Shown here: piece by piece, positions 4,459-8,443 of the stretch | Layout: each line of letters begins with the position of its first letter | Position numbering within the stretch: position 1 is the first letter of the stretch | Source: a bacterium | GTDB taxonomy: Bacteria > UBP6 > UBA1177 | DNA length: 35,152 nt | Reading direction: 5' to 3' | Assembly: GCA_017961325.1 (NCBI GenBank) | Contig: JAGCXM010000012.1 | Coordinates: 1-35,152, forward strand | Notes under the pieces: generated by a model | The model's input: the letters and a program-made list of their open reading frames with translations, nothing else | The model's database searches: none | Told to the model about the DNA's origin: nothing | Made by a program: the position numbers and the translations under genes

Positions 4459-4508
4459 TTCTTTTCCTCCGCCAAAATCCGCCGCATTATACACAAAAAT
4501 TCAAAAAA

Positions 4509-5357
4509 TTATCTTATTTTTTCCAATGAATACTGCTTTAAAAGTTCAAGCAGATATTCCCACCACATTTCGGAAGTGAACTGGTTCGAAAATGCCGACG
4601 GCATGAGAAAGCGGCGCATTTCAAAAAGGAAATCCCGCTGTCCGTTTTTTATTTCTTCGATCCGTTCCGCGTATTTTTTACGGAAGTCGTTTTCAGCAAT
4701 TTTTCTGTCGGCAAGTTTTTGCAGTAAAAGCTCTTTCCCGGGTGCGGTGTTTTTCTGCGAAAGCCAGTGGATATCCCACAGATCGCGGTTTTTAACGCGG
4801 TTGGGTCGGAGTGCGACTGCAATCAGTTTGTCGCAGAGAATTTCGTTCAGGCTTTCGGCGTGGAGCAGGATCCCGTCAGTTCCGGAATCTATCCCGTAAG
4901 TGTTGCGGACCATTGCTGCTCTGCGGTCGCGGCTCGGGATCATGCAGATATCGATATTGATTTTCTGAGACGGAAAATCGGGGCGTTCGGGGCGCGTGAT
5001 TACTTTGATTTTCCATGTTTCGGTGTCGCCTGTTTCCTTCGTCGGAGCGGTTACTGTGACCGGAAGAGCATATTTTTCGTTTATAGAGTGTTCGATCACG
5101 TTTCCGAGTTCGCTCATGTCCGATTTCGAAAAATCGAATCCGCCCGTAAAATCGAGATCTTCGCTAAGACGCGGCGAGCCGTAGCAGTCACGGAGGCATG
5201 TTCCGCCGATGAAAGTGATGTTTTTCAAAAATCCGGCGGAGTTCATGCAGCGGAGAATGTCCAGATGCAGAATCTCTTTTTCTATCGCTGTTCGAAGCAC
5301 TGGATATTCCGTATTCTGCGATATAATTTGCGAAACTAAATCATCAAAAACCGGCAT
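4509..5357 (-). CDS. abiEii: AbiEii-type nucleotidyltransferase toxin (type IV toxin-antitoxin)
   Basis: The 282-residue protein carries the nucleotidyltransferase signature GGTCLRDCYG (51-60) followed by RLSEDLDF (63-70), with D67 and D69 as likely metal ligands. This is the hallmark of the AbiEii/AbiGii family. Members are toxins of abortive-infection systems that modify RNA, tRNA in the best-studied relatives, with nucleotides. It lies 12 bp downstream of the AbiEi-type antitoxin gene, with AAAGGAG before its ATG, so the two form an operon. The gene ends 50 bp before the hsdM start, within the same minus-strand defence block. Length is normal for the family. Confidence 0.9.
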   Translation of the reverse strand: MPVFDDLVSQIISQNTEYPVLRTAIEKEILHLDILRCMNSAGFLKNITFIGGTCLRDCYGSPRLSEDLDFTGGFDFSKSDMSELGNVIEHSINEKYALPVTVTAPTKETGDTETWKIKVITRPERPDFPSQKINIDICMIPSRDRRAAMVRNTYGIDSGTDGILLHAESLNEILCDKLIAVALRPNRVKNRDLWDIHWLSQKNTAPGKELLLQKLADRKIAENDFRKKYAERIEEIKNGQRDFLFEMRRFLMPSAFSNQFTSEMWWEYLLELLKQYSLEKIR

Positions 5358-5369
5358 CTCTTTCTCCTT

Positions 5370-5906
5370 TTATATTTCTGATTGTTCAACTAAATCCACC
5401 AGGCGTTTGCAGTCTTTCATGTCCTGCAGCGCGAGTTTTTCGGATGCCCAGAGCATTCCTGTCTGCCTGTCGAGCCTCAGTTCGGGCATGATTTTACCAA
5501 AATTCTTCGAGGTGTGTATCAGTTCGACTGTGCCGAAGCGGCCGCAGCTGATTGTGCCGCTCCGTCCGGTAGTCATAACGGTGATCCAGCCCAGAAGCTG
5601 CTGCGAGATTCTGCCAGATTGCGAAAGGACTGTTTCAAGGCTCACATAGTTCATGCTGCTGGCACGGAGTTTTGCAGCGACTTTAAATAAGACGAGAGAG
5701 GGATCGTAATCCGTTTTTGTGTAGAGGTATATTCCTTTGCAGATACGCTCCAAAATGTTGCTTTTCACAGCTCTTGAAAGCAGCATGGTCAGATTTTCGA
5801 CAGTCATATCCGGAAAAATCGCAGAAAAATCCTGCTGCGAAAAGAGACAATGCTGGCTGTCGGCATTTTGTTCAAGTGTCTTTTCAAGTAACTTTATCGG
5901 CTGCAT
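5370..5906 (-). CDS. abiEi: AbiEi-family antitoxin/autorepressor
   Basis: The gene encodes about 178 residues and sits directly upstream of the AbiEii toxin gene. The N-terminal part (about 15-70) looks like the winged-helix DNA-binding domain of AbiEi antitoxins, including SRAVKSNILERICKGIY and a following YLYTKT strand. The remainder is the antitoxin domain. AbiEi proteins neutralise the AbiEii toxin and repress their own promoter by binding inverted repeats. A sigma70-like promoter (5938-5966) and a 6-3-6 inverted repeat (5920-5934) lie just upstream, which fits autoregulation. I prefer ATG 5904-5906, which has AGGA 10 bases upstream; a GTG three codons earlier is the alternative. Confidence 0.8.
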   Translation of the reverse strand: MQPIKLLEKTLEQNADSQHCLFSQQDFSAIFPDMTVENLTMLLSRAVKSNILERICKGIYLYTKTDYDPSLVLFKVAAKLRASSMNYVSLETVLSQSGRISQQLLGWITVMTTGRSGTISCGRFGTVELIHTSKNFGKIMPELRLDRQTGMLWASEKLALQDMKDCKRLVDLVEQSEI

Positions 5907-5919
5907 ATTCCACACATCC

Positions 5920-6012: not shown

Positions 6013-6064
6013 CCCGAAAACGGATCATAAGAGTCCGCTACGACATATAGCGTCGTAGTGAAAA
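6013..6064 (+). repeat. 52-bp hairpin repeat, copy 1
   Basis: This matches 8276-8327 at about 45 of 52 positions by eye and is in the same orientation. It contains a 7-bp stem, CTACGAC/GTCGTAG (6038-6044 and 6052-6058), with a 7-base loop, followed by a T-rich stretch. The two copies bracket the orphan antitoxin, GIY-YIG-type and Fic genes. It could be the end of a small mobile cassette, a REP-like dispersed element or a terminator. Confidence 0.6.
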
Positions 6065-6144
6065 CTTTTTTGATTTTTTTGCTTTGACCAAGCTCGGTAG
6101 CCGCTTTTCTTTGATAAATATATGCGGTTCTTGAGCGTAATATG

Positions 6145-6172: not shown

Positions 6173-6206
6173 ATTGCTGTTTTTTTACGTTTTGGAGGCA
6201 AACAAA

Positions 6207-6473
6207 ATGACCAGAGTAAGTACAAACATCAATTTGGACAGTGACTTGAAAAAGAGTGCACAGCTGCTTTTTGCAGATTTGGGAATGGATCTCACGACAG
6301 CCGTCACGATTTTCCTGAAGCAGGCTGTCAGAACGCAGAGTCTTCCTTTCCCTGTAACGAAAGTTCCCAATGAAGAAACTCTTGCCGCGCTAGGCGAATA
6401 TCAGGAGATGCTTCTTCATCCTGAAAAATACAAAAGATATTCCTCTTTCAAAAGCGCGCTTGACGAAAAGTGA
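6207..6473 (+). CDS. RelB/DinJ-family antitoxin, no toxin partner beside it
   Basis: The 88-residue protein begins MTRVSTNINLDSDLKKSAQ and continues LGMDLTTAVTIFLKQAV. This is the ribbon-helix-helix N-terminus typical of RelB/DinJ antitoxins, which dimerise, bind operator DNA and use the C-terminus to wrap a RelE/YafQ-type RNase toxin. Here the C-terminus ends KYKRYSSFKSALDEK. The ATG is set by TTTGGAGGC eight bases upstream. The usual toxin gene would overlap or follow directly. Instead there are about 100 bp with a terminator-like hairpin and then a gene on the opposite strand. It may be a relic, may act in trans on a toxin elsewhere, or may regulate its neighbours. Confidence 0.85.
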   Translation: MTRVSTNINLDSDLKKSAQLLFADLGMDLTTAVTIFLKQAVRTQSLPFPVTKVPNEETLAALGEYQEMLLHPEKYKRYSSFKSALDEK

Positions 6474-6575: not shown

Positions 6576-7310
6576 TTAATTTTTATTTTTCGTTTTGGCT
6601 TTTGATCTTCCATCGCAATAACTTACTGGATATTGATTGTTTCTATATTCTTCGGGGATTCTTTTTTCAAAGAAGAAGTTACGTATTTCAGCAGGAGCAT
6701 CCTCACCATCGAAATATGCCCTGCCTCCGTCTTCAGTCCATTCTTTAACTTTATAAACCCCAACAACTATTCCATATTTAACAGCAAGAACAATAGGATA
6801 TTGTTTTGCCTTGTTTAAATTTATTTTCCAAGATTTTCTAACTGCTTCATAGACACTGCCTGCAAAGTCAATACTTGGCTGATTGATTTTTATGATCATA
6901 AATTTCTGATGATCAGGAGTGTTTGGATAATCCTCAAAAGATGGACGCTTAAAAGTTCTTTCTAACTCATCAGCCCAAATCATTCCTTTATCACTATCAT
7001 GTCCCCTTTGCTTATTGGTTAAAAGATTAAGGTCAATAAAAGCAGCCTCAACGTCTAATGCTGTATTTTCAGACATTCCCCAGCGTTGAATCATGTGGAT
7101 TACTTCCAATCCTGCGTCCTTGATTTCTTTTATCCTTTTTAGTTTTTCTGGATCTTCTTTTTTTAGTTCATTAATTTTTTTGTTGGTGTCTTCATCCTTC
7201 AATTTTGTGGAATGGCTCTTTTCTTTGCCAAACAGATCCATTGTACACAAAAAACTATTTTCAATATCTTTGTTAAAATTACTGCGCCATGGAATGTTTA
7301 TATTCCTCAA
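6576..7310 (-). CDS. LEM-3-like GIY-YIG family protein lacking the N-terminal nuclease core
   Basis: The 244-residue product matches the helical and C-terminal parts of the LEM-3/ANKLE1-like GIY-YIG family. It has KRIKEIKDAGLEVIHMIQRW, then TALDVEAAFIDL, then LTNKQRGHDSDKGM (about 60-110). A C-terminal domain of the same family follows, containing YEAVRKSWKINLNKAKQYPI and YGIVVGVYKVKEW. The usual start of the family, a Y-x-Y strand and a YIGKG motif holding the catalytic residues, is absent, and the N-terminus is an unrelated charged stretch. So the nuclease is probably inactive, or the gene is a 5'-truncated remnant. The frame begins with TTG at 7308-7310, overlapping the end of fic by 32 bp; the first ATG is at 7239-7241. 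Neither start has a good ribosome-binding site. Confidence 0.7.
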   Translation of the reverse strand: MRNINIPWRSNFNKDIENSFLCTMDLFGKEKSHSTKLKDEDTNKKINELKKEDPEKLKRIKEIKDAGLEVIHMIQRWGMSENTALDVEAAFIDLNLLTNKQRGHDSDKGMIWADELERTFKRPSFEDYPNTPDHQKFMIIKINQPSIDFAGSVYEAVRKSWKINLNKAKQYPIVLAVKYGIVVGVYKVKEWTEDGGRAYFDGEDAPAEIRNFFFEKRIPEEYRNNQYPVSYCDGRSKAKTKNKN

Positions 7311-8061
7311 TCTGACGTTGCAAGTTTTCTATGTGATGATTAAACATGAAATCAATGAATTTATTGGAATTTTCAGCTTCCTGACTTTCTGCAAGGCTCT
7401 GAATATACGCAGCGCGGCTTTCCTTTTTTACGATCGAAGGAATCAAGCCTGTCTCGTGCTGGATCATGTTCATGACAAGGCGCGACATTCTGCCGTTTCC
7501 GTCGGTCCACGGATGGATATTTACAAGGCGGTAATGAGCCTCGAAACTAAGTTCGTAGACTTTTTCGATATCGTTGGGATCTGTTTTTGTGCGCTCTTCA
7601 TTGAGCCAGTCGCAGAATTGTTGCAGTTTTTCAGGGATCTTCTGCCACGCAAGATAAGATTTCCCGCCTATGCCGGCACTCACATTCAGCAAGCGCAGTT
7701 CTCCTTTTGCGGAAGAGAAAGTTCCTCCGATCGTGTTGTAATCCGAGCCGGTGTTGCGCATTACAAGTGCGGAAAGGCTGCACAAAAGTTTCACTGTGAT
7801 TTTTTCGTGTTTTTCCGCAAAAACGAAAGCCTGTTCATAAGCTTTTTTCAAATCCAGATTCATAAGCTGTTCCGCCATCGGCTTGTTCGCACTGATCCCT
7901 TCGTCAAAAAGAAGACGGTTTTCGATTTCCGTGACAGTCGAGCCTTCGATCGCAGTAGAGTGGGTGATGATCGAATAGAGATAAAACTTGCCGTAATCAA
8001 GCTGCCGGCCGATGCCGAGTGAAAGATATTCATTTATTGTTTTTAGAAGTTCCGGTCTCAT
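7279..8061 (-). CDS. Fic-family protein with N-terminal inhibitory motif
   Basis: Fic proteins usually transfer AMP from ATP to hydroxyl side chains of target proteins. The 260-residue product carries the catalytic signature HPWTDGNGRMSR (183-194), with H183 as general base, D187 as metal ligand and R191/R194 for phosphate binding. The usual Phe after HP is Trp. STAIEG at 35-40 matches the class II inhibitory helix motif (S/T)xxxE(G/N), whose Glu blocks ATP binding, so E39 should keep the enzyme silent until it is released. The ATG at 8059-8061 has GGAGGGG upstream and a promoter at 8091-8118. The 3' end overlaps the next frame, the headless GIY-YIG-type gene, which suggests co-transcription. 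The target cannot be predicted. Confidence 0.9.
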   Translation of the reverse strand: MRPELLKTINEYLSLGIGRQLDYGKFYLYSIITHSTAIEGSTVTEIENRLLFDEGISANKPMAEQLMNLDLKKAYEQAFVFAEKHEKITVKLLCSLSALVMRNTGSDYNTIGGTFSSAKGELRLLNVSAGIGGKSYLAWQKIPEKLQQFCDWLNEERTKTDPNDIEKVYELSFEAHYRLVNIHPWTDGNGRMSRLVMNMIQHETGLIPSIVKKESRAAYIQSLAESQEAENSNKFIDFMFNHHIENLQRQIEEYKHSMAQ

Positions 8062-8090
8062 GTTCAGGCCCCTCCGTCAAAAACCATGGC

Positions 8091-8118
8091 ATTATATTAC
8101 ACAAAAAATTATTTCCAA
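8091..8118 (-). promoter_or_regulatory. Promoter of the fic gene
   Basis: On the minus strand TTGGAA (8113-8118), a 16-bp spacer and a perfect TATAAT (8091-8096). It lies about 30 bp before the start codon. Confidence 0.65.
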
Positions 8119-8443
8119 TAACTTTTATTTTAAAAATTCAGCTAAGTTGCGGAAAAAACTGAAAAAACAGGCTAAAAAGAGAAGGGAGATTTGTTCTTGA
8201 CGGTTTTTTATCCAAAATTGTCATGTAATCCTCCGATTTTCAGCATTTTTTTAAAACACGAGTGTTACTGCCCGGCCTGAAAACGGATTGTAAATGTCCG
8301 CTACGACATATAGCATAGTAGTGAAAATTATTTACCTTGCCTCGGCGTCCCTGAAATGGCCGCCCCTGAGGTAGGAAAGATGTCGCAGACAGAGGGGTGA
8401 AGCTGGCGGCAAAGCCGACTGAATGGTCTTATTTGCAGAAAAT
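8119..8443. other. Intergenic region between fic and the thioredoxin-CcdA gene
   Basis: No convincing gene is present. The first half is AT-rich and includes a small inverted repeat AACAC-GA-GTGTT. The middle holds the second copy of the 52-bp repeat (8276-8327). From about 8330 to 8430 the composition becomes clearly more GC-rich, with complementary stretches such as CCTCGGCG and CGCCCCTGAGG and a GGCAAAGCC block. This looks like a dispersed or structured element rather than coding sequence, and it marks the boundary between the island and the ordinary chromosome. Confidence 0.4.
8276..8327 (+). repeat. 52-bp hairpin repeat, copy 2
   Basis: Same orientation as 6013-6064, with about 7 mismatches in 52. 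The core CCGCTACGACATATAGC is identical in both. The stem is weaker here because the right arm reads ATAGTAG instead of GTCGTAG, so this copy may be the more decayed one. Confidence 0.6.

Follow-up and report, generated by a model that had tools for sequence, protein, structure and literature searches.

In class II Fic proteins the inhibitory helix sits in the Fic protein itself, its motif (S/T)xxxE(G/N) lying N-terminal to the Fic core, and the catalytic motif is HPFx(D/E)GNGRxxR. Class I toxin-antitoxin pairs of the VbhT-VbhA type consist of a Fic gene and a small neighbour on the same strand, an antitoxin in which the inhibitory motif is located. SoFic and PDC-S04 are single Fic proteins with an anti-phage role; SoFic has a small partner, AS1, and the available text of PMC12249575 describes a small antitoxin encoded downstream of this class 2 Fic protein.

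PD-T4-3, which is CMoRE, is a type IV restriction enzyme characterised in 2026. In the available part of that work an N-terminal GIYxY-YIG nuclease is followed by a C-terminal domain that binds 5hmC and 5ghmC, the DNA binding being described for E. coli CMoRE proteins, and no structural homologue of this sensor is reported in the same part (PMC12923530). The accessible text of a further study finds activity of PD-T4-3 in its native host, with no mention of truncation (PMC12409345). The literature searched on Fic with restriction genes or defence islands held no report of a fic and CMoRE pair or of Fic with exchanged restriction genes, and a census of McrBC and CoCoNuT systems makes no mention of Fic (PMC11090510).

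Here we analyse a stretch of 35,152 nucleotides from a bacterium of the UBP6 lineage (assembly GCA_017961325.1, contig JAGCXM010000012.1; hereafter the window) in which a fic gene is followed by a CMoRE-like frame that has lost its front. The original prediction for this pair offered two readings: a deletion that left a pseudogene, or a C-terminal domain kept on its own as a partner of Fic, such as an antitoxin. Its description of the two genes was largely right and is confirmed in part, and its interpretation is partly supported. We consider it probable that the locus is a defence array holding an intact class II Fic and the remnant of a recent CMoRE deletion, the remnant most likely being a young pseudogene and not a partner of Fic.

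Results

Fic and its headless neighbour

Both predicted frames are present, on the minus strand, and the second can be divided into three parts:

7279 to 8061, minus strand: fic, encoding a class II Fic/AMP-transferase-like protein of 260 aa, as judged by motifs and profile matches
6576 to 7310, minus strand: open frame of a beheaded PD-T4-3/CMoRE protein, 244 aa from TTG 7310 or 221 aa from ATG 7241
7152 to 7310, minus strand: replaced front of that frame, residues 1-53, overlapping the end of fic and element P (described below), no homology to the CMoRE front
6993 to 7151, minus strand: rear half of the GIY-YIG domain, residues 54-106, with the catalytic-Glu helix DVEAAFID (E88), from the alignment
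6606 to 6992, minus strand: C-terminal modification-sensing (5hmC/5ghmC) domain, residues 107-235, confidently modelled

Judged by its motifs, the fic product is a complete class II Fic protein, predicted to transfer AMP to a target. The inhibitory motif STAIEG is intact, as had been noted; it stands at residue 35, N-terminal to the Fic core, and fits (S/T)xxxE(G/N). The catalytic motif HPWTDGNGRMSR, at residue 183, fits HPFx(D/E)GNGRxxR except for a W in place of F. The protein matches the Pfam Fic profile (5.7e-16) and, in PADLOC, SoFic (1e-20) and the candidate family PDC-S04 (6.3e-19), with which it shares the class II domain and an N-terminal inhibitory motif of its own. In contrast to SoFic, whose profile has 361 positions, the window protein stops matching at 273/361, lacks the C-terminal domain that SoFic has behind the Fic core, and has no identified AS1-like small partner. 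The layout of the locus, with a small neighbour on the same strand, is that of the VbhT-VbhA type, but the inhibitory motif is within Fic and the headless protein, searched for [ST]xxxE[GN], has no such motif and so does not resemble a class I antitoxin partner. The window Fic would probably be an abortive-infection toxin of the SoFic/PDC-S04 kind, encoded by a single gene and inhibiting itself.

On profile evidence the open frame behind fic is a beheaded PD-T4-3/CMoRE gene. The PADLOC PD-T4-3 profile matches its product at 4.5e-35, the best stretch being residues 54-193, and Pfam LEM-3_GIY-YIG matches over profile positions 49-121 of 151 only; in a full-length sister protein the match to PD-T4-3 begins at profile position 2. 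The headless protein has in common with PD-T4-3/CMoRE the sequence and fold of the sensor and the rear nuclease half, in which E88 of DVEAAFID occupies the invariant column of the catalytic-Glu helix. In contrast to PD-T4-3/CMoRE, it is without the N-terminal GIYxY-YIG strands, the catalytic Arg, the start codon and the ribosome site. The kept rear part had been described as LEM-3-like helical and C-terminal domains, and it is indeed there; the family is rather PD-T4-3/CMoRE, and the C-terminal domain its 5hmC/5ghmC sensor. Similarly, the catalytic half was said to be lost, which is true of the front but not of the rear nuclease half with its Glu helix.

The Y-x-Y/YIGKG strands are missing, as predicted, from both the protein and the window: searched by tblastn with the front of a relative and with a front profile, the window gave no credible match to a Y-x-Y/YVGKG front, its best front-profile match (E 0.24) being located elsewhere. 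Insertion of fic into a CMoRE gene was also considered and rejected, since the missing front is not found elsewhere in the window. Clear DNA homology to the intact gene of G008, a member of the same genus, begins near 7156. The prediction that the N-terminus is unrelated held as well, in that the score of residues 1-53 against a relative's front was reached by 897 of 2000 DNA shuffles and 1047 of 2000 protein shuffles. Two likenesses to the CMoRE front, FNKDI/FNSEI and GKEK/GKGK, were rejected as no better than shuffles, and part of the tempting front-like stretch matches element P. The charged residues 24-53 lie at roughly the place of CMoRE's negatively charged active-site loop and are not alignable with it.

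An AlphaFold2 model of the headless protein has block mean pLDDT values of 72-96 for residues 111-230, 42-63 for the remaining nuclease half and 40-52 for the new N-terminus. Compared with the PD-T4-3/CMoRE structures (PDB 9U75, 9U7U, 9U7Z, 9U8D), the modelled sensor superimposes on the crystals 9U7U and 9U75 with Z 14.5 and rmsd 2.0 (119-121 residues, the rmsd over 119), and when modelled alone reaches Z 14.1. By sequence and model, the domain kept by the headless protein is the CMoRE sensor, with predicted binding of 5hmC/5ghmC. Among the folds picked up by Foldseek, the best matches of the sensor model outside CMoRE are YTH domains (Z about 5-6, rmsd about 4, 91-102 residues). With Z below 8 and an identity of about 10%, the resemblance to EVE/YTH (PUA-like) readers is too weak alone for a fold assignment; it weakly suggests a PUA-like reader fold for the CMoRE sensor.

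Start sites and element P

The region between and around the two genes holds copies of a promoter-like element, P:

7236 to 7275, minus strand: element P before the headless frame, its TACAAT (7240-7245) overlapping ATG 7241
8086 to 8160, minus strand: element P before fic, the same element as at 7236-7275 by element comparison
4479 to 4520: further copy of element P

The element is AT-rich and was found 23 times in the window and the loci examined, 3 times in the window and 20 times in L047-L063. Fic and the headless frame have one copy each, and the 22 copies other than that of the headless frame precede open reading frames, many being defence genes of unrelated kinds; among these frames are fic, hsdM, AlbA_2-domain genes, McrB, GmrSD and an HNH-type gene identified by eye.

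The headless frame had been taken to start inside the 3' end of fic. TTG 7310 does lie there, as the start of the longest frame, but a start inside fic is unlikely because element P stands at 7236-7275 and because none of the three candidate starts (TTG 7310, ATG 7241 and TTG 7202) has GGAG or GAGG within 24 bases upstream; the headless frame probably begins elsewhere. Among nine comparison starts seven have GGAG or GAGG, the exceptions being the GTG listed as the AbiEi start and, in the G017 copy, the first ATG. ATG 7241 is the only in-frame ATG upstream of residue 73, and a transcript from P would not be able to use it since TACAAT overlaps that ATG. The internal ATG at residue 73 (7092-7094), with GGAAG upstream, could be the start of a product comprising the Glu helix and the sensor.

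Relatives and the age of the break

Across the 19 genomes of the family, other matches to the headless protein occur only in G008 and G017, and the window genome holds one match. G008 encodes a full CMoRE of 273 aa as the second gene behind a D1 element (see below), with no fic. The G017 copy (L003, 1462-1962; 166 aa) keeps YRLV of the first strand and then jumps to the sensor, which makes it a different deletion; the whole sensor is kept, and GGAG precedes its second ATG. A search of genome_contigs gave 147 relatives from outside the genus, of which the best 80 were analysed, a set that favours full-length genes because it is the best-scoring part. A profile finds the front in 79 of these best 80 of 147; the exception, L157, lies at a contig edge, and L086 and L143 in the same set are cut at the far end. 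With the headless protein as the only query, a protein search of genome_contigs gave no match.

Full-length genes without fic had been named as a finding that would refute the coupling, by showing a one-off deletion, and such genes exist: G008 has one, and 79 of the best 80 of 147 relatives keep the front. Within the flanks of the best 80 of 147 relatives (up to 4 kb on each side, less at contig ends) there is no open reading frame with a Fic motif. A search for other fic genes followed by headless LEM-3-like proteins, proposed as a check, found none in the 28 phylum genomes (the window's included) or among the best 80 of 147 relatives. In the Picosynechococcus plasmid pAQ7 (L066, 150-2088) a CMoRE gene is split by an IS4-family element, and the annotation lists the rear part as a hypothetical protein of its own; given this copy and the G017 truncation, the CMoRE gene appears to have been broken repeatedly.

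Of the sites that are conserved in 90% or more of the 78 full-length relatives, similar shares are kept by the headless copy (15/24 in the rear nuclease half, 19/22 in the sensor) and by the intact G008 gene (16/25 and 17/22). The headless copy alone has lost one such site in the rear nuclease half and none in the sensor. As the rear nuclease half is as well preserved as the sensor, the break would be recent rather than followed by retention of the sensor only, and a useless nuclease half kept equally well argues against the sensor having long served by itself. Within the sensor, the lineage-specific changes of the headless copy (20/19/21) and of the G017 copy (15/15/16) fall evenly on the three codon positions, and those of G008 (11/13/25) favour the third, the difference between the headless copy and G008 not being significant (Fisher p 0.12). 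In a codon model, neutral evolution of the headless branch as a whole is rejected (lnL -1126.8 with omega 1, -1119.4 with omega free), a result of limited use given the saturation of synonymous change. The headless branch is probably mostly older than the break, and the fairest reading is that most of it predates a break that would itself be young.

The surrounding array

Upstream of fic the order is D1, a 28-codon stub, P and then fic, and the two genes share the region with further defence genes:

8276 to 8333, minus strand: putative promoter-operator D1, degenerate copy with one palindrome arm changed
8138 to 8224, minus strand: 28-codon stub MTILDKK...PQLS, starting like the cassettes' usual first gene in sister species (MTILDEKMAKELLNNG...)
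6174 to 6473, plus strand: orphan RelB-family antitoxin
6013 to 6070, minus strand: putative promoter-operator D1, intact copy reading toward AbiEi
5370 to 5915, minus strand: AbiEi, neighbour in the same defence array
4509 to 5357, minus strand: AbiEii, neighbour in the same defence array

D1 is the palindrome CTACGAC-GCTATAT-GTCGTAG followed by TACAAT (-10-like), shortly upstream of defence-type genes. There are 30 copies; the window has 2, and the other 28 are spread over 10 loci (L055-L064), one of which belongs to the window's own genome. WYL-domain regulators are present in D1-bearing arrays. From its sequence and placement, D1 looks like a genus-wide defence promoter-operator. Reading the D1 repeats as an integron was rejected, the copies being upstream promoter-operators, and TIGR02249 had no match over the cut-off in the family genomes. 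The gene in sister cassettes whose start the stub resembles is a repeat-protein gene; in the window this start runs into the tail sequence normally found before P, and G010 has a similar stub and P before an McrB-like gene. Fic and the headless gene stand side by side among defence genes that are promoted separately and often replaced.

Other features lie nearby. The RelB-type antitoxin at 6174-6473 has no evident adjoining toxin gene, and RelB-like frames also occur in the arrays of G010 and G013. Near the contig end (75-4494), hsdM (identified by eye), a DUF1016/YhcG nuclease and a short hsdS stand in a row, the hsdS product having 287 aa and one specificity-domain match. A palindrome around TTCAGACG(C/T)GTCTGAA lies at 2012-2059, and a similar one is found behind the fic of G015 (L054), just past the fic stop.

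Fic in sister species

Eight sister species have fic (protein identity 67-76%). Its next gene is of restriction type in six of the eight, and of four unrelated kinds:

UzuA: G012, G013, G014
GmrSD: G016
McrB/PD-T4-1-like ATPase: G018
YhcG, then an McrB-like gene: G005

At these six junctions (L047, L048, L049, L050, L051 and L052) the restriction-type gene follows fic at 13-84 nt or with a 4-nt overlap. In G007 and G015 fic is followed by a contig end or an unreadable remnant, and a run of N lies within the fic of G005 and of G007. A leader after the fic stop, TTTGAGAGGGAG(A/G)AGAAAATG, is common to the UzuA and GmrSD versions (G012, G014, G016). The DNA identity of fic is 96.1-97.5% in five of these species, against 88.3-93.7% for alr (four genomes) and 92.1-97.1% for eno (five). 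The 19 genomes hold three UzuA genes, all behind fic. Where flanks are long enough the sister fic locus is mostly beside eno; the eno site of the window genome has no fic, and the window fic is located in a D1-type array instead. Sister arrays also contain CMoRE, McrBC and GmrSD genes with no fic, and among seven Bacteroidota plasmid relatives of Fic the six that are annotated show no consistent nuclease behind fic.

The original prediction spoke of a coupling of the two window genes. As a pair of fic and headless gene this does not recur in the 28 phylum genomes or the best 80 of 147 relatives, but the idea survives in the wider pattern of fic directly before a restriction-type gene. The sister pattern speaks against a purely accidental neighbourhood of fic, and Fic and these enzymes might work together.

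Discussion

The preferred reading is that of a defence-gene array in which genes stand behind copies of the shared promoter elements P and D1, and in which the nearness of fic and the headless gene would come from gene turnover and not from a working pair. Of the two interpretations first offered, the deletion and pseudogene is supported by the intact relatives without fic, the loss of the gene's own start and ribosome site, and the different truncation in G017. The headless product would not be able to cut DNA and, if translated at all, would be a dead 5hmC-binding protein; most likely the frame has no function. Consistent with that, a gene next to the pair has likewise shrunk to a stub (8138-8224), and the model of the remaining nuclease half is poor. 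Against a pseudogene count the frame, open over 244 codons, the rejection of neutrality on the whole branch, the internal ATG with GGAAG, the lack of significance of the codon-position difference, and the sensor, in which no residue conserved in at least 90% of relatives is lost solely here.

The alternative that survives best, though we judge it unlikely, is that fic and a swapped downstream gene form one modular defence unit in the genus, of which the window version has a broken second part. UzuA (three times), GmrSD, the McrB/PD-T4-1-like ATPase or YhcG right behind fic in six species, the leader common to UzuA and GmrSD, and the position of 3/3 UzuA genes behind fic all favour such a unit. 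However, the eno-side locus is a defence hotspot, so that any neighbour there tends to be a defence gene. Moreover, McrBC and GmrSD also occur without fic in other arrays, the window fic lies elsewhere in its D1-type array, and the six annotated Bacteroidota plasmid relatives have no consistent nuclease behind fic.

It is improbable that the headless protein functions without Fic as a dead 5hmC binder, for example by shielding or marking modified DNA. The open frame and conserved sensor would agree with such a role, as would the independently shortened G017 copy with its whole sensor and its GGAG before the second ATG. However, the shortened copies amount to two in the genus and one possible case (L157) in the best 80 of 147 relatives, their lineage-specific changes are flat over codon positions in both copies of the genus, and no such protein is reported in the literature searched.

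There is only a slight chance that the CMoRE sensor has been kept alone as a reader subunit for Fic, such that binding of 5hmC/5ghmC would release the self-inhibition of Fic and, in place of cutting, bring about abortive infection. In favour of this, the sensor retains its conserved residues and is modelled with good confidence, in 6/8 sister species a restriction-type gene comes directly after the same fic, stand-alone EVE readers of modified bases occur in toxin-antitoxin and restriction contexts in the available text of PMC7641849, and SoFic offers, in the accessible portion of its report, a class 2 Fic with a small downstream antitoxin (PMC12249575). Against this, no second pair of fic and headless gene was found in the 28 phylum genomes or the best 80 of 147 relatives, the non-functional nuclease half is equally well retained, the frame has no [ST]xxxE[GN], a separate P element and three starts without a ribosome site, and sister arrays also have CMoRE, McrBC and GmrSD where fic is absent. 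The antitoxin-partner interpretation found no positive evidence, given the missing antitoxin motif, the inhibitory helix that Fic has of its own, and the separate copies of P. An assembly error in this draft genome, which is in 48 contigs and has repeats nearby, is very improbable, since no other part of the window contains the missing front, the protein has a single match in the genome, and the P and D1 repeats do not bracket the lost part so as to collapse one gene copy.

Were the pair to work together after all, which we doubt strongly, a 5hmC/5ghmC sensor parted from its nuclease would serve as the trigger of a neighbouring self-inhibited Fic, an abortive-infection system reading modified phage DNA, and more broadly Fic would be the constant first gene of a unit with an exchanged DNA-sensing second part. 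Most likely the window pair reflects the ordinary decay of a defence gene. Even so, the window shows type IV restriction genes being broken and replaced in a promoter-sharing array, and the headless frame is a natural nuclease-free copy of the CMoRE sensor. More interesting than the window pair is the wider pattern in the sister species, where one Fic gene of the genus has different restriction-type genes behind it at a fixed junction, a candidate defence unit.
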